Of a stretch of 64,000 nucleotides of DNA, positions 10,907-59,522 are shown in pieces (position 1 is the stretch's first letter; every line of letters starts with the position of its first letter). The position numbers and the translations under genes were made by a program. The notes beneath the pieces are model-generated. The model worked only from the letters and a program-made list of their open reading frames with translations. It made no database searches and was not told the DNA's origin. The stretch comes from Sphingobacterium chungjuense (lineage in GTDB: Bacteria > Bacteroidota > Bacteroidia > Sphingobacteriales > Sphingobacteriaceae), in the NCBI RefSeq assembly GCF_011316935.1, contig NZ_WLYS01000005.1, positions 62,001 to 126,000 of the forward strand, in the 5' to 3' direction.

Positions 10907-11956
10907 ATGCTAAATTTTTCAGACCATCCGCATACGCGTCTCAATATTCTCACGGGCGAAAAGGTGTTGGTATCGCCGCATCGAAGCAAGCGTCCTTGGC
11001 AGGGACAGGTAGAAGACCTTGTGCTAGAGCAGCGTCCTGCTTATGATCCTGAATGCTATCTGTGTCCCGGCAACAAACGGGCAGACGGTACAGTGAACCC
11101 AGATTACACCGATAGTTTTGTTTTTGTCAATGATTTTTCAGCTTTGCTGCAAGATACACCAAACGAGCAGTATAATGATTCTGATTTGTTGCAAGCCGAG
11201 AGCGAGCGCGGTATCTGCAAAGTGATTGCGTTCAGCCCACGACATGATCTTACATTGCCTGAAATGGATCAAGAAGCCATTGAAGCGGTGGTCGATTTGT
11301 GGCAGCAAGAATTTGCGGATCTTGCCAAAAATGAATGGATCAAATACATTCAGATTTTTGAGAATAAAGGAGCGATTATGGGTTGTAGTAATCCGCATCC
11401 ACATGGACAGATCTGGGCGCAGGGAAATGTACCCGTAGAAGTTCAGAAAGAAGACGCGCAGCAGAAAAATTACTTCGTAAAGCATGGCAAATCGTTATTG
11501 TCTGCGTATCTGGACCTAGAATTACGGAAGCAAGAACGCATCATCGTTGATAATGCACACTTCGTGGCCTTAGTGCCCTTTTGGGCAGCATGGCCTTATG
11601 AAACGTTGATCGTAAGCAAGCGGCATGTAAGCAACATAGCAGAATTCACGGCAGAAGAGAAAGCGGATTTGGCAAAGACATTGCAAGAGTTGACGATCCG
11701 ATACGACAATATCTTTAGTACTTCTTTTCCGTATTCTGCCGGGATGCATCAAGCATCGGTCAATAATGGTGATCAATCGCATTGGCATTGGCATATGCAT
11801 TTTTATCCACCATTGCTACGTTCGGCTACGGTCAAGAAATTCATGGTTGGCTATGAAATGATGGCCAATCCGCAGCGTGATATCACGCCGGAATTTGCGG
11901 CCGATCTATTAAAAAAACAATCAACTATACATTACAAAACACGTCAAGATGGGTAA
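10907..11956 (+). CDS. galT: Galactose-1-phosphate uridylyltransferase
   Basis: Exchanges the UMP group between UDP-glucose and galactose-1-phosphate in the Leloir pathway. The 349-residue protein has the zinc-binding CYLCPGN near residue 50, the catalytic motif [10 protein letters not shown] with the nucleophilic His, and a C-terminal [11 protein letters not shown] metal site. It overlaps galK by 8 bases, showing a two-gene operon. galE and galM are not nearby, so the other Leloir steps must be encoded elsewhere. Confidence 0.97.
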
Positions 11957-13106
11957 GCAGAATACATTAAAGGAAAGATACCAAGCCCTATTTGGGGCGG
12001 AGCCCGATCTGATGGCCAAATCACCGGGACGGATAAATCTCATTGGAGAGCATACGGATTATAATGAGGGATTTGTGTTGCCGACGGCAATTGATAAAGC
12101 AATTTATGTAGCGGTAGCAGCGCGCGATGACGACAAAATTGTACTCTACGCCGAAGATTTTTCAGAGTATTTCGAATCTACTGTAGATACAGTTAGCCCA
12201 TCCGATAAAGGCTGGCCAAATTATATCTTAGGCGTAGTCGATCAATTAAATAAGCTGAACTTAGCCGTCAAAGGATTTAATTTATATGTGGATGGTGATG
12301 TGCCATTAGGCGCGGGTTTGTCCTCTTCGGCCGCGGTAGAATGCGCGACTGGATTCGCGTTGAATGAGCTTTTTCATTTCGGCCTGAGCCGACAAGAGAT
12401 TGCGAAGATTGGACAAATGGCTGAACATACTTTCGCTGGCGTGAAATGCGGCATCATGGATCAATTCGCATCTGTGCTTAGTAAAGAAGATTTTGTGATC
12501 AAGTTAGATTGCCGCTCACTCGAGTACGAGCATGTGCCTTTGCTTTTAGGAGATTATGAGTTGGTGCTGTTCAATACCAATGTCAAGCATTCCTTAGCAT
12601 CTTCTGCGTATAATGATCGCCGTAATTCCTGCGAACAGGGCGTGGCTTGGTTGCAAAAAGCATATCCTGACGTGCTGAGCTTACGTGATGCGACGGTCGA
12701 AATGCTGGAAGCGGTGGTAAAACCCAAAGACGAGGAAGTATTTACCAAATGTAAATATGTAGTTGAAGAAAATATTCGCGTGGAGCTCGCTTGTGAAGCC
12801 TTGAAATCTGGTAATATCGAAGAGATGGGCCGCCAGATGTTTGTCGCACATCAAGCGATCAGTCAAGATTATCAAGTAAGTTGTGCCGAGCTCGATTTTT
12901 TGGTGGATTATATGAAAAATCAGCCCGAAGCGGTAGGAGCGAGGATGATGGGCGGTGGCTTCGGTGGTTGTACGATCAACATTGTGCAGAAAGGACATGC
13001 AGAGCGTATTGCGAGGCAAGTTTCACCCGCATACAAAGAAGCTTTTGGCTTAGAACTTGAACCAATTTTTGTAGCAGCTTCCGGTGGATCAACTTTGTTA
13101 GCATAA
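11949..13106 (+). CDS. galK: Galactokinase
   Basis: Phosphorylates galactose at O1 with ATP. A 385-residue GHMP kinase with the sugar-binding signature [16 protein letters not shown] at the N-terminus, the ATP loop [12 protein letters not shown] (about residue 120) and the C-terminal motif [11 protein letters not shown]. Length is typical. It overlaps the end of galT and is followed by a bidirectional terminator. Confidence 0.97.
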
Positions 13107-13182: not shown

Positions 13183-15468
13183 TTACTGGTTTAATGTGAA
13201 TTTGGCGACTTGCGTATCGCGTGAGTTGGTACCTACAAACACTTCAAATTCACCGCGCTCTGCTACCCACTGCAATTCCTGATTAAAGAATTTAAGATCT
13301 TCCTCTTGCAGGGTAAACGCGATTTTCTTCGTTTCCCCTTTTTTGATAAGTACTTTTTCAAATTTCTTTAATTCCTTGACCGGACGTGTGACCGAGCCAA
13401 CTAGATCACGAACATATAATTGTACGACTTCTTCACCATCCCAGTTACCAGAATTGGTAACATCCACTTGCACTTCAATCGTACCGCCTGCTGTCATACT
13501 AGTAGCAGAAAGTTGTGGTTGTCCGTAATCAAATTGGCTATAGCTCAAACCAAATCCGAAAGGATATAATGGTTCATTGTCTACGTCAATATAATTCGAA
13601 CGGAACTTTTCAAACCACTTTCCTTTTGCTAGCGGACGTCCGGTATTTTTCTGCGCGTAATACAGTGGAAGCTGACCAACATGCTTTGGAAAACTAGCTG
13701 GAAGTTTACCCGAAGGGTTCACATCACCAAATAGCACATCGGCCACCGCTTTTCCTGTCTCGGAGCCACCAAACCATACATTTAAAATCGCTGGTACGGA
13801 TTCACTTTCACCCACAATCGTCATCGGACGACCCGCAAAAAGAACTAAAACTACCGGCTTACCAGTTGCCAATAGTCTTTGCAATAAACGTTGTTGAATT
13901 TCTGGAATACCAATATCTACTCGGCTCGAACTTTCGCCAGACATTTCAGAAGCTTCACCCAAGGCAGCAACAATAACATCTGCATCTTTTGTCGCTGCCA
14001 CCGCTTCTGCTAAGATGGATTCCTCATCGCGTTCATCACGTGGGATGGTACGTCCAAACATCGTGGCTCGTTCTTGATAAGCGGCGTCTTCTACCAAATT
14101 CGAACCTAGGTGCGTGATGATTTCTACTTTGTTGCCCAATGCAGCACGCATGCCTTCCACCAACGAAGGTGTATTGGCATGATCGGCACTTACGCTCCAA
14201 GTTCCCGGCATATTGCTGCCCGTATTGGCTAATGGGCCAATCACAGCTAATTTGCCCTGTTTTTTCAGAGGCAAAAGCTGGTTTTCATTTTTCAGTAATA
14301 CAAAGGATTTGCCGGCAGCTTCACGTGCTTTTTGCAAATGTGCTGGGGTATAGATATCCGTTTTTGCGCGCTTTGCGTCAGCATTTTTGTACGGATCGTC
14401 AAACAGACCAAGTCGGTACTTCGCTTCCAGCACCGCACGACAAGCCGCATCAATCCGTTCTTGCGCGACTTTGCCTTCTTGTAACGATTTCTCGAGCGTA
14501 GTCAAGAATCCTTCTCCGACCATGTCCATATCCATTCCTGCATTCAGCGACAGTTTGGATACTTCTTGCAGATCTCCCAAACCGTGTTCCACCAATTCAT
14601 TGACGCCCGTATAATCAGACACCACTAATCCTTTGAAGCCCCAATCTTGGCGCAAGACATCGGTAAGCAACCATTTATTAGCGCTGGCAGGAACACCATT
14701 TATATCATTAAAAGATACCATGATAGATGCTACACCAGCATCCACCGCTGCTTTGTACGGCGGGAAATATTCGTTGTACATCCGATGCAAACTCATATCG
14801 GTGGTATTATAATCACGTCCGCTTTCTGCCGCGCCATACAACGCAAAATGCTTCACACAGGCGAGCATCGCATCTTTTGCACGCAGATCATCCGATTGTA
14901 GTCCGCGAACCATCGCTGCCGCAATTAGACTTCCCAAATAAGGATCTTCACCACTTCCTTCGGAAATACGTCCCCAACGCGCATCGCGACTAATATCTAC
15001 CATTGGCGAGAATGCCCAATGGATTCCATCGGCCGTGGCCTCTTTGGCGGCAATACGTGCCGTTTGCTGAATCAGATCCAGATCCCAAGAAGCCGCTAAA
15101 CCTAATGGGATAGGGAAGGCGGTGCGATAACCGTGGATCACATCCATGCCGAAAATAATAGGAATCTTCAAGCGTGATTGCTTCATCGCAATTTCCTGCG
15201 CACGTCTTGTTTTCTCTGGTGTGCTCAGGCTGAAAATACCGCCGATTTTTCCTTCGGCAATCTTTTGTTCCACTCCCGTGGATACGACCGAGCCTGTCAC
15301 CGCTTCACCAGCAGTTACCAAGTTGAGTTGGCCGATCTTTTCCTGCAAAGTCATCTTAGACATCAAATCGTCTAAGAATCGGTTCATTTTGGCATCATTT
15401 TGCTGTGCTTGTGATAAAAAAGGTAACGCTAAAGCACAAATTATCAATCGAAATTTACTTTTGTTCAT
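13183..15468 (-). CDS. bglX: Glycoside hydrolase family 3 beta-glucosidase (BglX-like)
   Basis: Secreted 761-residue exo-acting beta-glucosidase that releases glucose from beta-glucooligosaccharides. Signal peptide residues 1-21 (ending SQAQ), a GH3 N-terminal barrel with the nucleophile Asp285 in VVSDYTG and the KHFALYG motif, a GH3 C-terminal alpha/beta sandwich, and a fibronectin-III-like domain (from about 670). It is the last gene of the susC-susD-GH144-GH3 operon, 15 bases after the glucanase. Bacteroides BT3567, a GH3 beside a GH144, prefers beta-1,2 linkages; by context the same specificity is inferred here, but general beta-glucosidase activity cannot be excluded. Confidence 0.93.
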   Translation of the reverse strand: MNKSKFRLIICALALPFLSQAQQNDAKMNRFLDDLMSKMTLQEKIGQLNLVTAGEAVTGSVVSTGVEQKIAEGKIGGIFSLSTPEKTRRAQEIAMKQSRLKIPIIFGMDVIHGYRTAFPIPLGLAASWDLDLIQQTARIAAKEATADGIHWAFSPMVDISRDARWGRISEGSGEDPYLGSLIAAAMVRGLQSDDLRAKDAMLACVKHFALYGAAESGRDYNTTDMSLHRMYNEYFPPYKAAVDAGVASIMVSFNDINGVPASANKWLLTDVLRQDWGFKGLVVSDYTGVNELVEHGLGDLQEVSKLSLNAGMDMDMVGEGFLTTLEKSLQEGKVAQERIDAACRAVLEAKYRLGLFDDPYKNADAKRAKTDIYTPAHLQKAREAAGKSFVLLKNENQLLPLKKQGKLAVIGPLANTGSNMPGTWSVSADHANTPSLVEGMRAALGNKVEIITHLGSNLVEDAAYQERATMFGRTIPRDERDEESILAEAVAATKDADVIVAALGEASEMSGESSSRVDIGIPEIQQRLLQRLLATGKPVVLVLFAGRPMTIVGESESVPAILNVWFGGSETGKAVADVLFGDVNPSGKLPASFPKHVGQLPLYYAQKNTGRPLAKGKWFEKFRSNYIDVDNEPLYPFGFGLSYSQFDYGQPQLSATSMTAGGTIEVQVDVTNSGNWDGEEVVQLYVRDLVGSVTRPVKELKKFEKVLIKKGETKKIAFTLQEEDLKFFNQELQWVAERGEFEVFVGTNSRDTQVAKFTLNQ

Positions 15469-15483
15469 ATTATTCGTTTTTGC

Positions 15484-16851
15484 TTAAAGGATTCTAGGTG
15501 AACTGAATCCTAGCTTTTTCAATCCGGCTTTGATCTCTGGCGCTTCCATAAATAGATTCCACAATAATCCAGAACGGTAATTCTCGATCATCACGACGAT
15601 CGGACCTTGATCGATCGCCAAATAATGCTGCGGAAACCAATCTTCTGTTTCCGAGTACGCATCATAAAAACCATATTTTCCCCACACCTTAGTACCTAAA
15701 GAGTCCATTAGATAATGGGCGAATGAAATACTTTCTTCCGGTGTGTATGGCATAGACGAAAGCGCTGCCGTTGGGCTGATCACACCGTGATCGTTATCCG
15801 GATGATGGGCATCATATCCTTTCAGCGAATAGCTGGCCGTCAATCCCCATCCTTTATCCGCACCATAGCCTTTGTAACCTTTTGGGTTTTCTTCTGCGTA
15901 GGCAATATTGATTTTTGCATGATTGCTTGTCACATCCCAATAATTAGCGCAGCGATCTTGCAAACCTTTTGGATCCAATCCTAAATACGAGTAGTGCGCC
16001 CAAAAAAGCGGACCGATCTCACCCGGTCGTGCATTGTGCTTGATGCTCAACGGTATATTTAGCTTTTCTGCGGTGGAACGAATCTCGCCCGAACGTGCCC
16101 AACCTTCATGATATACGGCTGTATCGATCGCGTGTGTAGGAGAGGAGGCTGCCAAAATATAAGTGACCAACCCTTCGTCGTAACCGCGTACTGGATGATT
16201 CATGCCGAAGTCTACCGATGGACTCCAATGCCAGAAAATCACATTTTGTCCATTGGTATAATGGTTCCAGTTTATGCCTTTCCACAGTTCATCAGCGCTG
16301 CTAGCCACGGCTTGCTCATCTTCCGAACCATTTTTCAAGTACTCGCGAATCGTAATTAGAGATTGTGCGAGGAAGGCTGTTTCAACAATGTCACCGCCGT
16401 TGTCTTTTTCACTAAACGCTTGCACTTTTTTGGTATCACCATGGTACCAATGTGCCCACGCGCCTTGAAAGCGTTCTATTTCCGACAGGTAATTCATTAT
16501 ATGCGCTAATCTTTTTACGCCTTCTTCCCGAGTAATAAATCCTCTTTCAATTCCTGTGATGATGGCCATGAGGCCGAAACCACTGCCACCAATGGTGACC
16601 ACATTTTGATCGTTTTTCGGATAAATTCCATCCAAATGGATGCGCTCACGCGCCATGCCTGAAGTAGGTTCAGCGCCCTCCCAGAAATACTGGAAGGTGT
16701 TGCGCTGAATCTCGGTGAGCAAAGAATCATCTTTGCTACTGTGCTCTGTTTGTGTTTTATCGTCGTTGGCTTGACTACCGGTATTATTCTGGCAAGAAAA
16801 AAATAGAGTTGCCGCGAATAAAGAGAGGGTAGCTGTTGTCAGTTTCTTCAT
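15484..16851 (-). CDS. GH144-like (glycoamylase-domain) beta-1,2-glucanase lipoprotein
   Basis: A 455-residue lipoprotein (lipobox ending FFSC, Cys20) with one large alpha/alpha-barrel glycoamylase-type domain. Visible family blocks are GGSGFGLMAIITGIERGF, the acidic KDNGGDIVETAFL, PGEIGPLFWAHYSYLGLD and HHPDNDHGVISPTAA. Automated annotation calls such proteins glucoamylase, but the characterised bacterial members with this domain and size are GH144 enzymes that act on beta-1,2-glucan, in endo or sophorose-releasing mode. Its place between susD and a GH3 beta-glucosidase mirrors the beta-1,2-glucan locus of Bacteroides. Family assignment is by recognition of the motifs and context and is strong; endo or exo action is unknown. 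Confidence 0.82.
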   Translation of the reverse strand: MKKLTTATLSLFAATLFFSCQNNTGSQANDDKTQTEHSSKDDSLLTEIQRNTFQYFWEGAEPTSGMARERIHLDGIYPKNDQNVVTIGGSGFGLMAIITGIERGFITREEGVKRLAHIMNYLSEIERFQGAWAHWYHGDTKKVQAFSEKDNGGDIVETAFLAQSLITIREYLKNGSEDEQAVASSADELWKGINWNHYTNGQNVIFWHWSPSVDFGMNHPVRGYDEGLVTYILAASSPTHAIDTAVYHEGWARSGEIRSTAEKLNIPLSIKHNARPGEIGPLFWAHYSYLGLDPKGLQDRCANYWDVTSNHAKINIAYAEENPKGYKGYGADKGWGLTASYSLKGYDAHHPDNDHGVISPTAALSSMPYTPEESISFAHYLMDSLGTKVWGKYGFYDAYSETEDWFPQHYLAIDQGPIVVMIENYRSGLLWNLFMEAPEIKAGLKKLGFSSPRIL

Positions 16852-16886
16852 ATATTTCTAGTAATTCGCTCTTTTGTGTATAGTTA

Positions 16887-18431
16887 CTATCGTTGTTCTA
16901 GACCGACTAATTGTGGTAAAATGTCTTGTTGTGGCAATGGATAAGGATAGAAACGCCCCGAAGCAGGATACGTTCTTCCTTCGTAGTTTAGCTCAGTTGT
17001 ACGATCATGGCGGATCAGATCATAGAAGCGGATACCCCATTCTGAACCGAATTCAGCAAATTTTTCTGCTAACACATTATCCAATGTTACACCCGAAATG
17101 GCTCCCAATTTTGCCCGACCACGCACGAGATTAACCGCTTCGTCGGCGCTTAATGCGCTACTCGACGCGCCACTAACCAACGCTTCGGCATGCATAAGCA
17201 GGACTTCTGCGTAGCGAATCACGATCATGTTTTTATTCTCTCCATAATTAGTACGGTCCTGCGTCAATTGCGTGGACGGCAAATAGTGCTTGCCACTTAG
17301 GAATAAATAACGTGGGTGGTTGTTAAATACATCACCTTCACGTGTTGTATTGCTTACGAATGCTGGTAATTCAGCATGAGCCGGATCACTTTGTAAGGCT
17401 TCGATTCCGCGTGGTGTAAATAATACGGTAGTCTCTAAGCGATCGGTTTCACCACGATCCAGCATGAATTTGATATATTTCTGACTTGGTTCGTAGAAAC
17501 CCCATCCTTGACTGGCTCCAGCACGAGCCGGCGTCCAGCTACTTGGGCCATAAAAATCCCAAGGGAATCGGTACGATGTACCTGTTCCAGTACCTAAGTC
17601 TGAATATTGGTATTCCAACAGGTTTTCGTTATTCAGCTTTCCAGGTATCTTAAATAATTGGTAGTAATCTTCCGACAAACTATACAAACCACTACTGATA
17701 ATTTCACTCGTCGCCTCAGCAACGGCTGGATAATTCTTGGCTTCCAAATTGGCCATCGCTTTTACGGCTAATGCCGTGTGGCGGGTAACGCCACCGCGGA
17801 TGTCTGTGCGTTGGTTTGGTCGCATATCGGGTAATGCGGGTAAAGCTTCATCCATTAATGTGGAAATATGTGCCATCACACCTGCGAAATCCGTAGGCTC
17901 TACATTAAACATATCTGCCGGCACCGAACTTGTTGGGATTAGAATTGTTCCCCACAAACGCGCCAATTGCAGCAATTCAAATCCCTGCATCACCTTAATT
18001 TCGGCAATGTACTGCTGTGCCGTTTGCTCAGAAGCTCCAGCCTCTTGGTATTTTTGAATTTCTTCTATAGCGCCCTGCCAATTGATTAAGTCCGTATAGA
18101 GATTTAACCAAGTGGAGTTGAGCATCCAGAAATTACGATCGTAACGGTAGTTGTCTGCATTGGCAAATAAGGGTTGATCACCAAGACCACCTGCATTGAT
18201 ATCATCTCCGCGAACACCGATCAATGGTACCGTTTCCCATTGCATGGTATATAAGTCATTGTATGCGCCACGTGCCAGCAATACCATATCGGCACTTTGG
18301 GAATAGTCGATCTCATCCGCGATAATCTCGTTCTCCAGTGGTGCGTCTAGCGAACAGGAACTGGTAAATCCTAGCACGAAAAGCGCTAGAAAGGCACGAG
18401 GTATAGTATATAATTTTTTCATTTGAGTCAT
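16887..18431 (-). CDS. SusD/RagB-family glycan-binding lipoprotein
   Basis: A 514-residue outer-surface lipoprotein that captures oligosaccharide for its SusC partner. The lipobox is visible (LGFTSSC), followed by the SusD-like N-terminal repeats and the conserved MIVIRYAEVLLMHAEAL block. A second ATG three codons downstream (18422), giving an MKKLYT signal start, is an equally good start. It lies 14 bases after susC and 35 bases before the GH144-like gene. Confidence 0.94.
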   Translation of the reverse strand: MTQMKKLYTIPRAFLALFVLGFTSSCSLDAPLENEIIADEIDYSQSADMVLLARGAYNDLYTMQWETVPLIGVRGDDINAGGLGDQPLFANADNYRYDRNFWMLNSTWLNLYTDLINWQGAIEEIQKYQEAGASEQTAQQYIAEIKVMQGFELLQLARLWGTILIPTSSVPADMFNVEPTDFAGVMAHISTLMDEALPALPDMRPNQRTDIRGGVTRHTALAVKAMANLEAKNYPAVAEATSEIISSGLYSLSEDYYQLFKIPGKLNNENLLEYQYSDLGTGTGTSYRFPWDFYGPSSWTPARAGASQGWGFYEPSQKYIKFMLDRGETDRLETTVLFTPRGIEALQSDPAHAELPAFVSNTTREGDVFNNHPRYLFLSGKHYLPSTQLTQDRTNYGENKNMIVIRYAEVLLMHAEALVSGASSSALSADEAVNLVRGRAKLGAISGVTLDNVLAEKFAEFGSEWGIRFYDLIRHDRTTELNYEGRTYPASGRFYPYPLPQQDILPQLVGLEQR

Positions 18432-18445
18432 TGTTTTAGTGCTAC

Positions 18446-21400
18446 TTACAATTTAATCATTACGCCAAAAGTGTATACAGCTGGAATTGGGTACACCTCG
18501 CGGTCAATACCATCTGCTACTTCTGGGTTGAAGCCGTTGTATTTGAAGATAGTCAATGGGCGTTCTGCCGTAAATGTTAAACGTGTTTCTGGCCATTTGC
18601 TCTCGCTGCCAAAGAAAGTGTACGATAGGCGGACGTTTTGTAGGCGGAAATACGAGCCACTTTCCATAAAATAGCTGCTCATGTTTTGATTCCAAGCACG
18701 TCGCAAGCCAGATGCAGAAGGATACTGGTTCGATGTGCCTTCGCCTCTCCACATGTTTTCAGCTAGATCAGCATCAATGTTGGTGTCATTGGTGAAAATC
18801 ATCTCGCCACGTTTACGGTTCAGAATACTGAAGCCAGACTGGCCTTGAAATAGTGCGGAGAAATCCAATCGCTTATAACTAAGACCTATGTTTCCTCCCC
18901 AAGTAAATGTTGGCAAGTAAGATCCTAGAACGGTACGATCTAGATCGTCGATCACACCATCACCGTTGACATCTCGGAAAATTAAATCACCTGGACGAAG
19001 GCCGTTGGCTTGAATAAACTCTGGCGTATACCCACTGTTTTGGATTTGCTGCTCATTTTGGAATACGCCGACCACATCATAACCAAAGAAAGCTTGATAA
19101 GGTTGGCCAAGGATAGAACGTTGTCTAAACTCTGCCTGTCCAGCATCCAAAAATGGTGCATCACCGAGACTACGTACCTCATTTTTCAGCGTAGCAATAT
19201 TACCGCCTATGCTGTACGAGAAGTCCTCGTTGATATTGTCCTGCCAGTTGAGGTTCATTTCAAATCCAGTGTTGCGGAAAGCCCCCACACTACGACGCTC
19301 CGATCCACGAAGTACTGGTGGGATAATGTTTACCGCAAGGTTGCGCGTGTCTCTGATGAAATAATCTGCATTCAATGACAAACGGTTATTAAGAAACTGT
19401 GCGTCGATACCTACGTTGGTCTCTACTGTGGTTTCCCAGCTCGTGATTAAATCAAACAGGGGATTAAGGAAGCGACCCACAATACGGCCATCTCCAATCG
19501 CACCCGTGTTTTCTTGATATCTTGGGCGACCTGCGGCTGGATTGATGCCATCATTACCCAACTGACCCCAACCTCCGCGAAGTTTTAAGAAGTCGATTCC
19601 AGGTACATTGAAAAACTCTTCCTGTGATACCACCCAGCCTGCGCCGATCGTCGCAAAGTGACCCCATTTCTTTTGAAACTTGTTGTTACCGTCACTTCTC
19701 AATGTACCATAAAGTAAGTACTTGCCATCGTAGTTATAGGCTACCCGACCGAAGAAGGAAAGGAATTTCAAATTTGCATTTAATGTAGTCTCGTTGGCGT
19801 CACCAATGTCATTCAAATCAAAATCTGTTGCATTAGTAAGATACCAGAATTGTTCTGCCGCACGTGTCGGCGCTGGATTGATCGCTGTACCTCTAGCGAA
19901 AAGCAATTCGCTGTATTCGGTACGATACGAATGTCCTAAAACGGCGTTTAAGTTATGCTTGCCAAACTGATCATCGTAGGTCAAGAAGTTGTCCCATACC
20001 TGATCATAGCTGCTCGTATTATTTCTACGAATGGCTGATGGTACCTGAGTAACACCATCATTGTATCCCTGATCTACGCGACGTGTATTGTTAAATGCCA
20101 GACTGTAATTGTACTGCGTACGGAATTTCAGTTTGTTCTCGATGATGGTGGCTTCTAGATTGAAGTTACCTAATACTTTGGCGATATGGTTTCTGTTATC
20201 AACAAAATTCAATGGGAAAAATGGATTTTGTACTCCTCTATAGCCCAAAGATTGTGCATTGGCCAATCCAAGTGGTGAAGCGGCCGTGTTTTGTGGATCA
20301 AATACAGGTAAGGTCGGTACCGCGAAATAAGAGCGGAACCACGCCGTGTTTTCACCAACATATTGACGGGCGGTACTTACATTAAAGTTACCACCAACCG
20401 TCAACCAGTCACGCACACGACTATCTACTTTTGTTCTGAAATTCAAACGGGTGAAATCATTACGCTGCTCGTTCAGTAAACCTTCTTGATTGAAGTAACT
20501 TCCACCTATGGCATAGCGTGTTTTCTCGCTACCTCCACTAAAGGATAAGTTGTGGTTTTGGATAGGAGCTGGCGACATCACTTCGTTGTACCAATTGGTA
20601 TTGACATTAGGCAGTGCTGGATTATTTGGATCGGCACCAAAGCGGTTGATCGCATTTTCAATAAATGCGATATCGGCAGCGCTTCCCGTTTCGTTGATGT
20701 AGCGAACAAATTGCTCGGTGTTGGCCATTTTTAAGACGTTTTGAGGATTTTGAATACCCCAATAACCATCGTACACGATTTCCGCTTCTTGATTGTAAGC
20801 ACCTGATTTCGTTTCGATGATAATAACGCCATTGGCAGCGCGTACCCCGTAAATAGCAGCAGCAGAAGCATCTTTCAACACATTGATGGTGGCAATATCG
20901 TTCGGGTTAAGAAAGTCGATATTATCAAAAAACATGTTGTCTACCACATACAATGGCGCTGAAGCACCTTCGGCAGAGGTAACACCACGCAAGCGAACAG
21001 TTGGCGAAGCGCCAGGCGCGCCGCTACTCACAATTTGTAATCCTGGTACACGCCCTTGCAAAGCTTGCATAGGTTGTGCTGCGGGAGTTTTTACAATGTC
21101 ATCAGCACGTACAGTCGCGACTGCGGTGGTGAGGTTACGTTGGCGTTGTGTACCGTAACCAACGACTACAATTTCTTCTAAAGTTTGGTTGCCGTCTTCT
21201 AGCAACACATTTAAGACGGTATCGCCTGCAGTGACTGTGACAGTTTTCGTTTCATAACCCAGGAAAGAAAATGATAGTGCATCGCCAGTGGTAGCGTCGA
21301 TCGTAAAACGACCCGCATCATCTGTTTGCGAAATAGTAGATTTTCCAGAAATGCGAATGGTAGCACCGGGGATACTCATTTGCGATTGGCTGTCTTTTAC

Positions 21401-21481
21401 TGTTCCCCGTATGGTGGTTTGGCCATACACTAGAAGGCTGCTGTATAAAAACAGCAAGGAGAGTAAGAGTGACTTCCTCAT
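18446..21481 (-). CDS. SusC/RagA-family TonB-linked outer membrane transporter
   Basis: A full-length 1011-residue TonB-dependent transporter for oligosaccharide import. Signal peptide (residues 1-20), a carboxypeptidase-regulatory-like beta sandwich (TIRGTVKDSQ...GATI), the SusC signature LEEIVVVGYGTQRQRNLTTA, the plug with NPNDIATINVLKDASAAAIYG, and a beta-barrel ending YTFGVMIKL. It is the first gene of a minus-strand operon with susD, a GH144-like glucanase and a GH3 enzyme. A 5' leader or promoter inverted repeat lies 46-94 bases upstream of the start codon. Confidence 0.96.
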   Translation of the reverse strand: MRKSLLLSLLFLYSSLLVYGQTTIRGTVKDSQSQMSIPGATIRISGKSTISQTDDAGRFTIDATTGDALSFSFLGYETKTVTVTAGDTVLNVLLEDGNQTLEEIVVVGYGTQRQRNLTTAVATVRADDIVKTPAAQPMQALQGRVPGLQIVSSGAPGASPTVRLRGVTSAEGASAPLYVVDNMFFDNIDFLNPNDIATINVLKDASAAAIYGVRAANGVIIIETKSGAYNQEAEIVYDGYWGIQNPQNVLKMANTEQFVRYINETGSAADIAFIENAINRFGADPNNPALPNVNTNWYNEVMSPAPIQNHNLSFSGGSEKTRYAIGGSYFNQEGLLNEQRNDFTRLNFRTKVDSRVRDWLTVGGNFNVSTARQYVGENTAWFRSYFAVPTLPVFDPQNTAASPLGLANAQSLGYRGVQNPFFPLNFVDNRNHIAKVLGNFNLEATIIENKLKFRTQYNYSLAFNNTRRVDQGYNDGVTQVPSAIRRNNTSSYDQVWDNFLTYDDQFGKHNLNAVLGHSYRTEYSELLFARGTAINPAPTRAAEQFWYLTNATDFDLNDIGDANETTLNANLKFLSFFGRVAYNYDGKYLLYGTLRSDGNNKFQKKWGHFATIGAGWVVSQEEFFNVPGIDFLKLRGGWGQLGNDGINPAAGRPRYQENTGAIGDGRIVGRFLNPLFDLITSWETTVETNVGIDAQFLNNRLSLNADYFIRDTRNLAVNIIPPVLRGSERRSVGAFRNTGFEMNLNWQDNINEDFSYSIGGNIATLKNEVRSLGDAPFLDAGQAEFRQRSILGQPYQAFFGYDVVGVFQNEQQIQNSGYTPEFIQANGLRPGDLIFRDVNGDGVIDDLDRTVLGSYLPTFTWGGNIGLSYKRLDFSALFQGQSGFSILNRKRGEMIFTNDTNIDADLAENMWRGEGTSNQYPSASGLRRAWNQNMSSYFMESGSYFRLQNVRLSYTFFGSESKWPETRLTFTAERPLTIFKYNGFNPEVADGIDREVYPIPAVYTFGVMIKL

Positions 21482-21779
21482 AGATAGTGTGTAATTAGAA
21501 TAAGTGATTTAATTTATAATGGCTTTGATATTTATGTCCCAATCATCATATGTAGCCGGGGACATAACAAATATCAGCATATAAGGTTTTGTCAGGGAAT
21601 TTTGTACTAGCACATCATTACTACGCCAGTGAGATAGTTGCTTTAAGCATTGATAATTAAATCTATTGACCTATATACTAGTATCTTACGATCTAATCTA
21701 AAATCAAAATCATCTTCTACAAATGAGATCTCGTAGTTTGTTTAAACGGAATATGTGTGGTAATGATGTAGTAGATTGC
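21482..21779 (-). promoter_or_regulatory. Regulatory gap between susC and its putative regulator
   Basis: 298 bases without a gene. It holds an imperfect inverted repeat, 21527-21540 (GATATTTATGTCCC) with 21559-21575, in which both 7-base half arms match and the right side has 3 extra bases. The right arm contains GATATTTG on the minus strand (21568-21575), one base off the -7 consensus, so the repeat could be an operator at the susC promoter or a leader hairpin. Nothing else was seen. Confidence 0.5.
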
Positions 21780-26468: not shown

Positions 26469-27458
26469 TTAAGTACTAGTATGCTGTTCGAAATAAGCGC
26501 GAACACTCTCTTCGTCTCGCTGAATCTGAGCTTGCAACTCTTCTAAACTTTCAAACCACTGATCGTGTCGGATAAAGTGTACAAAACGGACGCGAAGTGT
26601 TTTCTTGTACAAATCATCTTTAAAGTCCAATAGATTCACCTCGATTTTGCGACTCATATCATCGATAGTAGGTCGTGTGCCAATGTAGCACATGCCCTTC
26701 GCTACGCGCTCCGGTTGTGGCGAGATGTATGGCCCTGACTCAATAGAAGGCACACGCGGATAGATTTCTACCTCTACGGCGTAAATACCGTATGCAGGAA
26801 TCAACTTATGACTTTCGTGCACATTGAGGTTTGCTGTCGGAAAACCAATTGTACGACCAATCTGATCTCCTTTTACGACAGTTCCTGTTAACTCAAATGG
26901 GTAGTCCAAGTATTTATTGGCTGTTGCAATATCCCCTTTAATCAGTGATTCGCGAATGCGTGTAGACGAAACGCCTACATCATCAATATCCTGTTTGGGA
27001 ATTTCGCTGACCTGAAAATCAAATATACTGCTATACTTGGTGAGCTCTTGAATATTTCCGGCGCGATCTTTTCCAAAATGATGATCATAACCGATAATGA
27101 TCGATTTGCAACCAATCTTATTGACCAACACATTGGAAATGTATTCTTCCGGAGTCTGTATCGAAAAATCTCTCGTGAATGGCGTGATAATCAAATGATC
27201 GATCCCTGCTAATGCCAAGCGATGCGTTTTTTCTTCGATGTCATTGATTAGCCGCAAGCTATCATCATCCGGATTAATTATCAATCGTGGATGCGGAAAG
27301 AAGGTTAGCAAAACGGTTTCTCCGCCCGTAGTACGAGCCGTTTCTACCAATTTGCTTAGTATGCGTTGGTGTCCGACGTGTACACCATCAAACGTACCAA
27401 TGGTAACCACCGCATTGGGTATTCGTTCGAATTCGTCTAGACTTCTATAAATTTTCAA
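26469..27458 (-). CDS. ribF: Bifunctional riboflavin kinase/FAD synthetase
   Basis: Makes FMN and FAD from riboflavin. The 329-residue protein has an N-terminal nucleotidyltransferase domain with GTFDGVHVGHQRIL (the HxGH site) and a C-terminal flavokinase domain with RTIGFPTANL and YIGTRPTID. Length and motifs are normal. It is the last gene of the ftsX-DUF3098-uppP-truB-ribF operon; the gap to truB is 47 bases. Confidence 0.96.
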   Translation of the reverse strand: MKIYRSLDEFERIPNAVVTIGTFDGVHVGHQRILSKLVETARTTGGETVLLTFFPHPRLIINPDDDSLRLINDIEEKTHRLALAGIDHLIITPFTRDFSIQTPEEYISNVLVNKIGCKSIIIGYDHHFGKDRAGNIQELTKYSSIFDFQVSEIPKQDIDDVGVSSTRIRESLIKGDIATANKYLDYPFELTGTVVKGDQIGRTIGFPTANLNVHESHKLIPAYGIYAVEVEIYPRVPSIESGPYISPQPERVAKGMCYIGTRPTIDDMSRKIEVNLLDFKDDLYKKTLRVRFVHFIRHDQWFESLEELQAQIQRDEESVRAYFEQHTST

Positions 27459-27505: not shown

Positions 27506-28204
27506 TTATTGTTTTTGCGCTTTAATAGCGTGAATCAAATCTTGCAGGTTCCAGGCATCTTCTACGCTGAAATCACCGCTTTTTGTACGACACAGAGCCG
27601 ATAAGTGACTCCCATTTTGCAATCGCTGACCAAAGTCGTTAGCAATAGAACGTATATAAGTGCCCTTAGTACATTTAATTCTAAAATAAATCTTTGGCAG
27701 CTCAATTTTTTCCACCTCAAAACTATGCACCGTGATTTGTCTTGGCTTCAATACCACTGTCTCACCACGACGTGCTTTTTCGTACACGCGCTCGCCATCA
27801 ATCTTAATCGCAGAGTGTGCAGGCGGATATTGATCCTGTTCGCCTACGAATGACGCAGCCGTACGATATATATCATCTTCCGAAATAGCACTGATATCAA
27901 ACGTTTGATCGATATCACTCTCTAAATCAAAGGTTGGCGTTGTAGCGCCTAAAGTAATCGTACCGGTATATTCTTTGTCTTCTGCCTGAAAACTATCAAT
28001 CTGCTTGGTCATTTTTCCCGTACAGATAATTAAAAGTCCGGTAGCTAAGGGATCCAAAGTACCTGCGTGGCCCACTTTTAGTTTGAGCGGTTTCATGGTG
28101 TTACGCAACTTACCAACCACATCAAAACTCGTCCATTCGTAAGGTTTATCCACTAGCAAAAGCTGTCCTTCCGCAAAGTGAAACTGCTTTTTCTCCTCCA
28201 TCAT
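27506..28204 (-). CDS. truB: tRNA pseudouridine(55) synthase
   Basis: Converts U55 in the T loop of tRNA to pseudouridine. The 232-residue protein has the N-terminal VDKPYEWTSFDVV, the catalytic motif GHAGTLDPLATGLL with the essential Asp, and a C-terminal KCTKGTYIRSIANDFG block. A TTG codon precedes the ATG at 28204; the ATG is preferred, and another follows directly. It starts 15 bases after uppP. Confidence 0.96.
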   Translation of the reverse strand: MMEEKKQFHFAEGQLLLVDKPYEWTSFDVVGKLRNTMKPLKLKVGHAGTLDPLATGLLIICTGKMTKQIDSFQAEDKEYTGTITLGATTPTFDLESDIDQTFDISAISEDDIYRTAASFVGEQDQYPPAHSAIKIDGERVYEKARRGETVVLKPRQITVHSFEVEKIELPKIYFRIKCTKGTYIRSIANDFGQRLQNGSHLSALCRTKSGDFSVEDAWNLQDLIHAIKAQKQ

Positions 28205-28219
28205 CAACTCCGAAATTCC

Positions 28220-53469: not shown

Positions 53470-53488
53470 TGCACTGCGCATTATCCGC
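53462..53488. terminator. Hairpin that carries the stop codons of two converging genes
   Basis: An 11-bp perfect inverted repeat (53462-53472 with 53478-53488) and 5-base loop. The plus-strand stop TAA (53467-53469) is in the left arm and the minus-strand stop (53481-53483) is in the right arm; each gene ends GC-GGA-TAA-TGC. There is no T run, so a transcription end here would not be a classical intrinsic one. Confidence 0.55.
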
Positions 53489-56400
53489 GATTAAATACCT
53501 TTACAATTTCTCGCAGCTCTTTTATTCTGCTGGCGTCAAAATCTCCCGATTGCATTTGCCAGCTCCAATTTCCTTCGGTCGTTGCAGGCGTATTCATTCG
53601 AGTACGCTCATCCAGATCTAAGATATCTTGCATGGGTACAATGGCCATATTTGCGCTAGAGCCATAAGCTAATCGAAGCAAAGCATCATTGATGGAGTTT
53701 GCATTGACTTGTTGGCCAGCGTAGCGCTTAATATTCTGACGCACGGTTTCATCCGTTTCCGTCTCGTACCAGCCACGCGTCGTATTATTATCATGCGTAC
53801 CTGTGTACACCACATAATTCTCCTCATATTGATGTGGAATGTGTGGGGAGGATGCGATATCATCACCAAAGGCGAACTGCAAGACTTTCATACCCGGCAT
53901 TTTCTGTTCGTCGCGCAGATCATAGACCGCATCGTCAATGTCACCCAGATCTTCTGCAATGAAAGGTAGTTCGCCAAATGCCTGACGGATTTTGGCAAAA
54001 AGAGCTTTTCCGGGTGCTTTTTTCCATGCGCCTGACTTGGCAGATTCGGCACTAGCGGGCACTTCCCAATAAGCAGCGAATGCCCGAAAGTGATCCAGCC
54101 GTATCATATCGAACAACGCGACGTTGCGCGCTATTCGTGCCGTCCACCATCTAAAACCGGTTTTTTTGTGCGCTTCCCAATTAAAGACTGGCATGCCCCA
54201 CAATTGTCCATCTGCATTGAAATAATCGGGCGGCACACCTGCTACCGCTTTAAGATTGCCATCTTCTTCTAGCGCAAATAGTGAAGGGTTAGCCCACACA
54301 TCCGCCGAATCGTGACTCACATAAATGGGAATATCACCTAAGATAGATATATCGCGTGCATGGCAATAGCGGCGCAATTTTGCCCATTGTTTGTCGAATA
54401 TATATTGTAACCATTTTTGAAACAAGATAGCAGATTGATGCTGGTTGGTAAAGCTTTTTAAGGCGTCTGCATCGCGCATGCGATAAGCCTCGTCCCACGA
54501 ATACCAAGCTACATGATCCTGTTTTTCGCGAAGTACGACATAAAGCGCATAATCATCCAACCACTTACTTTCCGACCTACAAAACTGCTGAAATTCTACG
54601 TCGCTTCTTACATCAGATTGGTCGAAAGCGGCTTGCAAAAGCGGCATTTTATAGGCTTCTGCTCGCTCAAAATCCACCTTATGATGCTTAGGCTTCTTTT
54701 TCTTATTAGGATATGATTGACCGTATTGTTGCGTAATCCCGAGCTGATCCAGATCAATTAATAGCGGATTCCCAGCCATCGCACTCCACGTACTATAAGG
54801 CGAATGAAACTGATCTTTCGCGGTAGGCCCAAGAGGTAATACTTGCCACCACCGTTGTCCGGCGGCAGCCAATTGATCAGCAAAGTTATAGGCTTCTTTG
54901 CCTAAATCACCAATTCCATTTTTTGATGGGAGCGAGGTGATGTGCAATACGATGCCTGCACTTCGCTTATTAACGGTAGATTGGCCTTGCAGCACGGCGA
55001 TTGGTAAATCTTCAAAAAGCGTATTGATGTCGATCTGTTTTGCATCTGTGCGTACAGCAGACCACGCATGTCGCCATTGGATTTCCTGATCTGCCGGTAA
55101 TACAATATGCGTATCCTCCCAATCAAATTTTCGAAAATCTTCATGGGTCGATTTAGCAATAGAAGCGAGGTGTAAAGGTATGGCAACCAGCACCCAATCT
55201 TGACGATATTTGCGCGCATAAGCCAATATATGACGTTTGTATTTGCCAGCCACCTCCACAGGTTGGTACATGCCATCGCGGAATACATCGGCATAATCAG
55301 CTCTCATTCGCAATAAGTGATGTAGTAGCGCTAGCTTAATTTTGCCCGAATGCCTTTCTTCCCACAATGTCGAAATTTGTTCTTGTAATGAGGAAGCCTT
55401 TATTTTTTCCAAATACTTTTGTCGCAGCGCATAATCTACTGGTCGTCGATTATCTGGATCTACAAACCCTAGTTCCCATAATTCAGAACCTTGATACACA
55501 TCGGGGATACCGGGACAGGTTAATTTTAGCACTAGCTGATTTAATGAATTGCTGATGCCAAAATCAAGATATTTAAGCAAGAAGTCGTGAAATTTCGGGA
55601 AGAATGCCTGTTTTTTATTCAATAAATAGCTGGCAAAGGATTTGAAACTATCCTCGTATGCTTCATTGGGCGCAGCCCAATCCGAGCGCTCTTTGCCTTC
55701 CCTTAAATATTTTTCCAAATAAGCATATAAGCGCGAATCATAATCGTCATACGGTGTATCTGGCATAGGATACGAGCCAAACAACGATTGGTATAAGAAA
55801 TATCGATCGTTAGGATGCGGTAAATCTTGCTTGTAGCTATTGGCTAAATCGGCTTCCCAAGATTTTACCGCTTCGATCCATTGTTCAGGTATCGCACTAA
55901 GTACTTGTAAACGCGCGCGTTGATCTTCACCTCGCTTCGTATCGTGCGTAGCACTTCCATTCAATGCTTCGGGCCATTTGGCTTGCCGATCAAGCATTGC
56001 TTGGTGAAATTTCTTCTTCGATAAACCAAAGTTCTCCGGGTGATCGCCGACCTCATGCCGACCAATATGGCGATGGTAGGTATACATCAAGGTATCTTCC
56101 ACACCTTTAGCCATTACTGGACCTGCAAATTGCATGCATCGTGCAAAAAACAACGCAGTTTTTTCTGCCAATTCATGCTCATTAGTAGATTGTGCTTTGT
56201 CAAATATTGCCGCAAGTGCTTTTACTGCTTTTTTATTCGCAGCCTTATTTTTTAGCATTTGTTCGAAGACAGAATCCATTAGTTTTACAGACGCATCCGC
56301 TAGTGGAAATTGCTCATCGTACAAACGATACACAGGAAAATAAACCAGAAAGCCGGCAATAGCTTCTTTCATGTCGCTTGCAGTAAGCGAGGTATCCGCA

Positions 56401-57671
56401 GGAAGCAATTCCAGCTGAAGCAGGTAGTGGTACAAATTATCGATCTCGCCGCCCATGTGGTTTTTCAATATGGCCGCCTTTTTCTGGAGTTGTAGCGTAT
56501 GTACATCCGCTGTGATACCAGTCAGCTCATGATAGTACGCCGTCAACAACTTTTCGCTTTTCTCATTCGTCAGTACGTTATTGCATAACGACAAAAACTC
56601 ATAACCCGTAGCGCCTTGAATCGGCCATTCTTCCGGCAATTCTTCGCCCGTTTCTAGGATTTTTTCGGCGACGATGTAGGTTTCTGCACCACAAAGCGTA
56701 CGGAGATCACGTAGGTATTTTGATGGATTGTACAATCCATCAATATGATCAATACGAAGTCCGTCGAAAATACCTTTATCTATTAGTTCTTTTATTAATG
56801 AATGCGTATCTGCAAATACTTCTGGCCGATCTACATTCATACAAATCAGACCATTCACGGTAAAGAATCGCCGGTAATTGATCTGCTTATCCGTTTCTTG
56901 CCAATGGCACAGACGATAATTTTGCTGTTCTAATAATGCGCTCATCGCGTTTGCATCCAACCGGAAATGAGCTAAATGTCGCTGTAGTTGGTTACGAGCT
57001 TTCGTGCCAGTAAATAACTTAGCGAGTGATTTATACACATTTTTTCGTCCTGACATCTCATCAATAGGCTGTCCTTGCAATTGTTGCATCAGCTCCGCCC
57101 AATCGTCTTTTTGATCGCTATCATCGAACAATCCTTGTAATAGATAGGCGTAGCTAGATGGTGCGAGTGGAAAAGACTGATCGTAATACTGAATCACGAA
57201 TTTACCTTTATCGAACTGGATGCTTAGTTCTTCGTCTTCGCATGCTTGACGCAAAGATTTCCCTAATACAGGCACCATCATCTTGCCGTCCATCAGCTCA
57301 CTACTGAAACTAGTATCGAAATAGGATTGATAGGCAGAATCAACACCATTTTCCAACAGATCCATCAACCACGTGTTGTCTGGATGAAAAGCCATATGAT
57401 TGGGCACGATGTCTTGCAGCCACGCCATTTGATGCTGACTTAATTTCTTTTTAAGCTGGATCAATTGGTTTTTAGTGCCGATCTCTGGGTTGATGCGATG
57501 GCTACTGATACCATCATAACCGTGCGTACTACCCGGCGTAGCAGCCAATAGTGGTGATGCATAAATAGTATGAACGCCTAGCTGTTGTAAGTACGACGTG
57601 ATTTGCTCCAAATTGGATAATTTGAAATCCTGATGGAATTGAATGCGATACGTATTGTGTGGATGAGGCAT
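53481..57671 (-). CDS. Fused maltooligosyltrehalose synthase and 4-alpha-glucanotransferase (TreY-MalQ)
   Basis: A 1396-residue protein of two glycoside hydrolase domains. Residues 1 to about 890 are TreY (GH13): it converts the reducing end of a maltodextrin into a trehalosyl unit; family parts include THGYDGISSHRINPEIG, LQDIVPNHMAFH and GLRIDHIDGLYNP. From about 900 follows a complete MalQ (GH77) with GIVLHITSLPSKNGIGDLG, DHFRAFAAYWEV and PFIAEDLGDI. MalQ can reshuffle short maltodextrins left after TreY and TreZ into longer ones. The fusion is the last gene of the glgX-treZ-treY-malQ operon, and its start lies 22 bases after treZ. Confidence 0.93.
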   Translation of the reverse strand: MPHPHNTYRIQFHQDFKLSNLEQITSYLQQLGVHTIYASPLLAATPGSTHGYDGISSHRINPEIGTKNQLIQLKKKLSQHQMAWLQDIVPNHMAFHPDNTWLMDLLENGVDSAYQSYFDTSFSSELMDGKMMVPVLGKSLRQACEDEELSIQFDKGKFVIQYYDQSFPLAPSSYAYLLQGLFDDSDQKDDWAELMQQLQGQPIDEMSGRKNVYKSLAKLFTGTKARNQLQRHLAHFRLDANAMSALLEQQNYRLCHWQETDKQINYRRFFTVNGLICMNVDRPEVFADTHSLIKELIDKGIFDGLRIDHIDGLYNPSKYLRDLRTLCGAETYIVAEKILETGEELPEEWPIQGATGYEFLSLCNNVLTNEKSEKLLTAYYHELTGITADVHTLQLQKKAAILKNHMGGEIDNLYHYLLQLELLPADTSLTASDMKEAIAGFLVYFPVYRLYDEQFPLADASVKLMDSVFEQMLKNKAANKKAVKALAAIFDKAQSTNEHELAEKTALFFARCMQFAGPVMAKGVEDTLMYTYHRHIGRHEVGDHPENFGLSKKKFHQAMLDRQAKWPEALNGSATHDTKRGEDQRARLQVLSAIPEQWIEAVKSWEADLANSYKQDLPHPNDRYFLYQSLFGSYPMPDTPYDDYDSRLYAYLEKYLREGKERSDWAAPNEAYEDSFKSFASYLLNKKQAFFPKFHDFLLKYLDFGISNSLNQLVLKLTCPGIPDVYQGSELWELGFVDPDNRRPVDYALRQKYLEKIKASSLQEQISTLWEERHSGKIKLALLHHLLRMRADYADVFRDGMYQPVEVAGKYKRHILAYARKYRQDWVLVAIPLHLASIAKSTHEDFRKFDWEDTHIVLPADQEIQWRHAWSAVRTDAKQIDINTLFEDLPIAVLQGQSTVNKRSAGIVLHITSLPSKNGIGDLGKEAYNFADQLAAAGQRWWQVLPLGPTAKDQFHSPYSTWSAMAGNPLLIDLDQLGITQQYGQSYPNKKKKPKHHKVDFERAEAYKMPLLQAAFDQSDVRSDVEFQQFCRSESKWLDDYALYVVLREKQDHVAWYSWDEAYRMRDADALKSFTNQHQSAILFQKWLQYIFDKQWAKLRRYCHARDISILGDIPIYVSHDSADVWANPSLFALEEDGNLKAVAGVPPDYFNADGQLWGMPVFNWEAHKKTGFRWWTARIARNVALFDMIRLDHFRAFAAYWEVPASAESAKSGAWKKAPGKALFAKIRQAFGELPFIAEDLGDIDDAVYDLRDEQKMPGMKVLQFAFGDDIASSPHIPHQYEENYVVYTGTHDNNTTRGWYETETDETVRQNIKRYAGQQVNANSINDALLRLAYGSSANMAIVPMQDILDLDERTRMNTPATTEGNWSWQMQSGDFDASRIKELREIVKVFNRG

Positions 57672-59511: not shown

Positions 59512-59522
59512 AACTGCTTGCT

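Follow-up and report, generated by a model that had tools for sequence, protein, structure and literature searches.

An apparently exchangeable SusC/SusD importer module at a predicted beta-1,2-glucan utilization locus of Sphingobacterium

Introduction

Several systems are known in Bacteroidota in which SusC-like importers are exchanged. In a fructan polysaccharide utilization locus (PUL) of Bacteroides thetaiotaomicron strains, SusC/D was found replaced (49%/39% identity) behind a promoter that was 91% conserved, and transplantation gave inulin use (PMC5967196). The RagAB alleles of Porphyromonas gingivalis are divergent, with a highly conserved N-terminal extension (NTE) of RagA (PMC11817032), and in Bacteroides ovatus and B. 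xylanisolvens homologous recombination between genomes has been proposed to exchange PUL genes and produce mosaicism (PMC8845570). The susC/ragA shufflon of B. fragilis exchanges SusC/D pairs behind a fixed start (PMC5729914). Here we describe an operon encoding SusC, SusD, a GH144 (glycoside hydrolase family 144) lipoprotein and a GH3 enzyme in a stretch of 64,000 nucleotides (the window) of Sphingobacterium chungjuense, contig NZ_WLYS01000005.1, positions 62,001 to 126,000, and its counterparts across the genus. We think it likely that this operon is a beta-1,2-glucan PUL with a modular importer, in which the plug-barrel part of SusC together with SusD is exchanged and the regulator, the SusC N-terminal domain, GH144 and GH3 are kept.

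A beta-1,2-glucan-type locus as such is of a known kind, and the transporter exchange is the new part. As in the fructan PUL, a SusC/D pair is replaced within a conserved PUL; that case, however, concerns alleles within one species, and the words N-terminal, recombination and breakpoint do not occur in the main text of PMC5967196. RagAB differs in being a peptide importer with strain alleles and transfer with P. gulae, and the accessible parts of PMC11817032 describe no joint at the TonB box. The B. fragilis shufflon resembles our case in its fixed start but uses inverted repeats and alternative copies, neither of which was seen in the window or the genome it comes from. In B. ovatus and B. 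xylanisolvens the exchanged segments lie between core-gene nodes, whereas the window holds a sub-operon cassette with its joint inside susC. In the open-licence papers searched, we found no description of repeated, genus-wide SusC/D exchange with a joint at the TonB box.

Transporter types across the genus

Of 93 genomes examined in the genus, 82 have GH144 (E <= 1e-120), that of the window among them; stretches of 13-20 kb around it were fetched from the remaining 81 genomes and two outgroups. These loci were annotated by BLAST against the proteins of the window and reference proteins, absence of a gene meaning absence from the fetched stretch. The transporter types are named by the best BLAST match to one reference each, and L142 was called B at only 42%. 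Type A is carried by 43 of the 82 genus loci, type B by 26 and type C by eight, including the window; the remaining five have no SusC/SusD nearby. SusC and SusD were of the same type in all 76 genus loci where both were called, again with the window included (no SusD was called in L113). On a GH144 tree of 84 rows the A/B/C state changes 14 times, the minimum possible being 2. A regulator homologue lies near GH144 in 74 of the 81 fetched genus loci, with two more beyond the fetched stretch, and GH3 is present in 70.

Some cassettes bring further genes with them. DUF4886 directly follows SusD in 14 of 26 type B loci of the genus and in none of the 43 type A or seven type C loci, the window being left out of this count. 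Outside the genus we considered 67 GH144 loci, left from the 80 best among at least 576 relatives, with genes called by best BLAST match at 100 bits or more (1e-8 for SusD); here LamG directly follows 14 of 15 SusD_C genes. We conclude that the exchanged cassette consists of the SusC plug-barrel and SusD, sometimes with an accessory gene, and that it has been replaced repeatedly as one unit at this locus. Type C itself splits in SusC trees into C1 (the window, L100-L102 and L137) and C2 (L131, L135 and L089), and C2 clusters with SusCs of other loci, L082-L088.

Replacement in place is seen between L053 (type A) and L139 (type B), whose regulator, GH144 and GH3 are 92%, 91% and 93% identical against 37% for SusC and 32% for SusD, and which share the same downstream gene. 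Their DNA is 88% identical over the regulator, the promoter and the first 361 nt of susC, breaks there, and is 87% identical again from the start of GH144. Similar breaks inside susC were found at nt 365 (L126/L051), 334 (L137/L053) and 332 (L096/L135). A gene like the topoisomerase-IV-A gene of L049, confirmed by Pfam in that locus, is found in the vicinity of 11 loci, with types A, B and C among them, and genes like those at window positions 26469-27458 and 27506-28207, which by their features are probably RibF and TruB, lie upstream of the regulator in three other genomes (G007, G014 and G069). These common flanking genes indicate the same chromosomal place across types. The pattern, a conserved PUL and flanks around non-orthologous SusC/D, is that of allelic replacement of SusC/D.

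The joint at the TonB box

The first ~105 residues of SusC, comprising the signal peptide, the NTE domain and the TonB box, remain with the locus, and it is the plug, barrel and SusD that are exchanged. We compared pairs from 74 of the 82 genus loci, taking residues 21-100 as the N-terminal domain and leaving out the outgroups (L056, L099), the loci with no SusCD nearby (L039, L047, L122, L123, L125) and those with a broken or cut SusC frame (L129, L134, L151). For the 34 pairs of different type with GH144 more than 80% identical (15 loci), mean identity was 84% in the N-terminal domain and 31% in the barrel. The corresponding values were 92% and 83% for 286 same-type pairs in the same GH144 range, and 46% and 63% for 763 same-type pairs with GH144 below 70%. 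These results suggest that among close relatives the N-terminal domain tracks the locus and the barrel tracks the type.

The residue that best splits the protein was 107 in the window SusC, 106 in L137 and L053, 111 in L135 and L089, and 103 in L139, and for each of these six SusCs none of 5000 column permutations was as good. The split site falls at or beside the TonB box, in the motif LEEVVVIGYGT; the TonB box of Bt1763 is DEVVVTG (PMC7782687).

The SusC of the window is a mosaic of the same kind. Identity of its plug and barrel is 77% with Parapedobacter composti (L169), 74-75% with P. pyrenivorans (L168), 79% with L137 and 33% with the type A L037, and the N-terminal domain gives 36%, 35%, 48% and 51% for the same four. 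DNA similarity to L168, L169 and L137 runs from window positions 21171-21189 to 16908-17167, in the susD end region. The barrels of the window and L137 cluster with Parapedobacter in the barrel tree, and the GH144 and GH3 trees reject a group that unites the window clade with L137 and Parapedobacter (p-AU, approximately unbiased test, 1.9e-5 and 1.4e-4), as they do one that unites it with L137 alone (2.5e-30 and 1.6e-4). The trees for these tests were quick ones of 27 rows each from 29 chosen loci, after L102 and L151 had been dropped from the GH144 tree for short frames and L054 and L138, two loci where no GH3 was found, from the GH3 tree. We read the window as carrying cassette C1, which also occurs in Parapedobacter and other Bacteroidota, behind an N-terminal domain of the Sphingobacterium type.

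A number of observations weigh against this account. The N-terminal domain of the window has no match above 51% identity beyond its own clade, which makes the recipient side weak, though the donor side is clear. The split range in the window is wide (residues 76-112), the split tests took the first 400 residues with groups picked once the trees had been seen, and the TonB box, being conserved in SusCs generally, draws any split toward itself. Over all 2701 pairs of the 74 loci the rank correlation with GH144 is 0.45 for the N-terminal domain and 0.34 for the barrel, and over the 1553 different-type pairs it is only 0.19 for the N-terminal domain; these modest values confine a strong N-terminal signal to close relatives, and the pairs are not independent events. 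Outside the genus, where A and B labels often rest on 34-41% identity and mean little, there were two swaps among 75 pairs with GH144 at 75% or more, namely L198/L207 (GH144 77%, N-terminal domain 72%, barrel 32%) and L174/L178 (75%, 65% and 39%).

Possible routes and causes of exchange

Exchange most likely proceeds by homologous recombination, with an incoming plug-barrel-SusD cassette recombining at its two ends, through the conserved TonB-box codons and through the border between susD and GH144. Tandem SusCD pairs, which give the clearest sign of the mosaic, are present in two genus loci, G007, where B is followed by C2 (L089/L235), and G014, where a B-like pair is followed by A (L052/L236). 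They would fit another history in which ancestral tandem copies were differentially lost and gene conversion evened out the N-terminal domains, with no foreign cassettes. Conversion, however, should even out the slots of one genome, and it is the same slot that is alike between G007 and G014 (N-terminal domain 86% and the rest 42% in slot 1, 90% and 36% in slot 2), whereas the N-terminal domains of slots 1 and 2 are 63% identical within G007 and 71% within G014. The clustering of the window and L137 barrels with Parapedobacter also speaks against a history with no import, which we regard as unlikely.

Shufflons of ragA/susC pairs exist (PMC5729914), and site-specific inversion of that kind could in principle exchange SusCD here as well. 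No second copy of the N-terminal DNA was found in the genome of the window, the best other match being 37 nt at 86%, and the inverted repeats around susC-susD are weak only, in a search of this genome and the window that did not extend to recombinases or relatives. We find such an inversion system barely credible at this locus, and the repeated or inverted susC 5' region that would mark a shufflon or phase variation was absent from the genome and the window.

As for the reason for the swaps, substrate tuning and phage escape may both be considered. If phages or bacteriocins that use SusC as receptor drive recombination, all types could carry the same sugar; what is exchanged takes in the surface-exposed part, GH144 loci are known with each of the four types (A, B, C1 and C2), and phage pressure on cell surfaces has been discussed for Salinibacter in connection with islands holding SusC/RagA genes (PMC6060240). 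On the other hand, the cassettes bring accessory genes, DUF4886 with type B and LamG after SusD_C, which speaks for substrate tuning, and receptor escape as the driving force seems to us possible, if doubtful.

Gene content of the operon

The first-pass annotation had placed the four genes on the minus strand in one operon. All four are present with profile matches (Table 1) and form one tight minus-strand operon, 21481-13183, with gaps of 14, 35 and 15 nt. Directly upstream of susC, and outside the region covered by that annotation, lies a gene for a protein with weak matches to propeller and helix-turn-helix (HTH) domains, likely the cognate regulator because its homologues are found near GH144 in so many of the fetched genus loci. 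The window thus contains what defines a Sus-type PUL: a SusC/SusD pair, linked carbohydrate-active enzymes and a candidate regulator. The genome is of 3.87 Mb in 18 contigs, and the closest named relative by GH144 is Sphingobacterium corticibacter 2c-3 (97%).

Table 1. Features of the operon and its upstream gene in the window
Feature	Position	Strand	Evidence
SusC	18446-21481	-	TIGR04056, 764 bits
SusC N-terminal part (signal peptide, NTE/PF13715 domain, TonB box LEEIVVV)	21161..21481	-	PF13715, residues 24-106
SusC plug and barrel, type C1, exchanged part	18446..21160	-	barrel identities, barrel tree
SusD, type C1, moves with SusC barrel	16887-18431	-	PF07980, 72.7 bits
Predicted GH144 endo-beta-1,2-glucanase lipoprotein, PF10091 'Putative glucoamylase'	15484-16851	-	254 bits (cut-off 27)
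Predicted GH3 beta-glucosidase	13183-15468	-	PF00933, PF01915, PF14310; BglX model, 912 bits
Putative sensor/regulator, 954 residues	21780-24644	-	Reg_prop propeller, Y_Y_Y, C-terminal sigma70-r4/HTH, all weak matches

Two further features of the window were noted. The gap between the regulator gene and susC holds an imperfect inverted repeat (21607-21774; 18 nt arms, 83%, 132 nt spacer), which may be due to chance. A frame of 1396 residues at 53481-57671, adjoining trehalose/glycogen-type genes at 57694-61649, looks by its sequence features like a fusion of malto-oligosyltrehalose synthase and 4-alpha-glucanotransferase.

The GH144 and GH3 enzymes

The best solved relatives of the PF10091 protein are 5gzk (595 bits) and 5gzh (594 bits), both of the GH144 enzyme CpSGL of Chitinophaga pinensis, and the two proteins align over nearly their full length (residues 17-453) with 251 of 435 aligned residues identical (58%). 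In CpSGL, E211 is the general acid, E142 the most plausible base, D135 and D139 are required for activity, and E211, F268 and Y330 are residues of the SGL clan (PMC12102758). The alignment places E226, E157, D150 and D154 of the window protein at E211, E142, D135 and D139, and F283 and Y346 at the clan positions F268 and Y330; D414 is also among the residues recorded. The CpSGL residues D135, D139, E142 and E211 are kept in all 83 relatives, including the two outgroups. At the family level, family assignment confirms the predicted 'glucoamylase' as a GH144-type endo-beta-1,2-glucanase, as the first-pass annotation had proposed, every tested catalytic and clan residue being present. The label 'putative glucoamylase' on PF10091 proteins of GH144 type is misleading for annotation.

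The window enzyme thus shares its catalytic and clan residues with CpSGL but sits in a PUL operon, whereas the two Chitinophaga GH144 loci retrieved (L213 and L226) have no SusCD within the stretch viewed. Its signal is lipoprotein-like and ends in FFSC. The mean number of acidic residues that follow the lipid cysteine is 0.32 in GH144 proteins (53 of 83 with a lipobox) and 1.07 in SusD (73 of 77), which hints at the periplasmic side under a lipoprotein sorting rule that is unproven for Sphingobacterium.

The same genome encodes a second, diverged PF10091 protein (L002, G000:C12 ~551800-553600, open frame 733 aa), and a weak second match of this kind is listed in all 36 genus genomes scanned for it. 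In a low-identity alignment the L002 protein keeps the general acid and has no equivalents of D150, D154, E157, F283 and D414, so it may not perform GH144-style cleavage. Two GH144 genes elsewhere in the genus look damaged, one (G085:C1:832409-833392) with a 337-residue frame that matches residues 1-328 only and the other (G097:C1:124261-125595) with one in-frame TAA.

The GH3 protein, which by a signal judged by eye is probably periplasmic, matches 5XXL over the whole chain (1052 bits) with the nucleophile D285 aligned, and has the N and C domains, an Fn3-like domain and the catalytic Asp; chains 5xxn and 3u4a have Asn at the position aligned with D285. 5XXL and 5XXN are BT3567 of B. thetaiotaomicron, to which the window GH3 is thus close. 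We also equate BT3567 with the beta-glucosidase of the SGL gene cluster of that species. The beta-glucosidase from this cluster is left unnamed in the passage that reports it (PMC8861115). JMB19063 matches the window GH3 equally well (1070 bits), which leaves a beta-1,2 preference unsettled. BT_3567 and Lin1840 act on sophorose and laminaribiose at comparable rates (PMC12369401), and GH3 alone therefore does not fix the linkage.

Substrate and proposed route

The substrate is most likely beta-1,2-glucan, judging by the families of the enzymes. Of the earlier claim that the locus takes beta-1,2-glucan and not starch, the family-level part stands and the exclusion of starch is well supported, while the polymer itself is what we infer. 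Short beta-1,2-glucan, linear or cyclic, would be imported across the outer membrane by SusC/SusD and cleaved by the GH144 lipoprotein to sophoro-oligosaccharides, which GH3 would trim to glucose, and the upstream propeller/HTH protein would turn the operon on; substrate, localization, regulation and each of these steps are drawn from what is known of the families. The polymer is probably of foreign origin, since MdoG/OpgG (PF04349) and GH94 (PF17167) have no match in the genome of the window at E <= 0.001. GH43, LamG, sulfatase and DUF4886 extras are missing from the window operon, which would fit a plain beta-1,2-glucan.

Other loci tell less clearly for this substrate. Among the 67 outside the genus, 58 have SusC and SusD, 52 GH3, 41 GH43, 16 LamG and nine sulfatase. 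Of the 81 fetched genus loci, 14 have GH43 at a distance of up to 8 kb, and 11 of the 81 show no GH3 within the fetched stretch. GH43 and sulfatase at GH144 loci mean that the natural substrate may be decorated or different. Moreover, the closest transporter relatives outside GH144 loci are of the beta-1,3-glucan type. In some relatives GH43 with F5/8 domains and sulfatases stand between GH144 and GH3 (L049 10981-12726, L053 11291-14597, and others).

Another beta-1,2-linked glycan, for example beta-1,2-galactan, might be the polymer. Bxy_22790, a GH144 homologue in Bacteroides xylanisolvens, is a PUL-mate of a beta-1,2-galactosidase (PMC11739564), so that GH144 by itself is no proof of the polymer, and galT/galK adjoin the operon at 10907-13106. 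However, these genes are convergent with the operon, and they neighbour GH144 in the window and L100-L102 but do not do so in the remaining 78 fetched genus loci; the GH3 of the operon is of the BglX kind, GH35 is absent from the operon, and all tested CpSGL residues are kept in the window GH144. We consider such a glycan improbable. A link to galactose use through galT/galK was set aside, the adjacency being limited to the window and three near relatives.

Feeding on beta-1,3-glucan through a transporter of the laminarin type has some transporter evidence in its favour, as the window barrel is ~40-41% identical to the SusCs of L082-L088, one of which is in the same genome, and L082, L083 and L085, the members of this group checked by Pfam, hold GH16 with a TIM barrel; a GH3 of the BT_3567/Lin1840 kind would also accept laminaribiose (PMC12369401). 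Yet the window operon has no beta-1,3-glucanase, the C1 barrels form a clade separate from the beta-1,3-glucan transporters in the barrel tree, and at GH144 loci of Parapedobacter, Belliella, Cyclobacterium and a Flammeovirgaceae metagenome-assembled genome their identity is 67-77%, with 51-54% in others. The genome also has a separate GH16 locus, L082, and altogether we hold a beta-1,3-glucan substrate to be very unlikely.

L082 (G000:C12:295000-314999) encodes GH16, a GH2_C-like TIM barrel, SusCD 38%/33% identical to those of the window and a like-built regulator (27%), and is probably a beta-1,3-glucan PUL. In L083 and L085 Pfam finds GH16 and the GH2_C-like TIM barrel fused in one protein, and the L083 protein has matches among structures of GH158 and GH16, which are beta-1,3-glucan enzymes.

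Implications

A two-part view of SusC may be put forward tentatively, as an idea that we do not yet favour: a slot-specific front end (NTE and TonB box) that ties the importer to the partners of its slot, and a plug-barrel-SusD cassette that can be exchanged and determines the cargo. A specificity of NTEs for particular TonB proteins has been suggested before, and growth on levan was undetectable after 24 h when the NTE of Bt1763 had been deleted (PMC7782687). If the two-part view is true, recombination at the TonB box would change uptake and keep operon control, even with C2 cassettes akin to those of beta-1,3-glucan loci, and the NTE would be an address tag, for which natural swaps that spare it would be evolutionary evidence. 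The natural chimaeras with their recurrent joint are ready objects for testing the role of the NTE, cargo part against wiring part. SusC/D specificity in a PUL should not be transferred between species from the enzymes, nor the reverse, since the importer looks like an exchangeable module that has been repeatedly replaced in related species, with the enzymes, the regulator and the front end of the importer kept.

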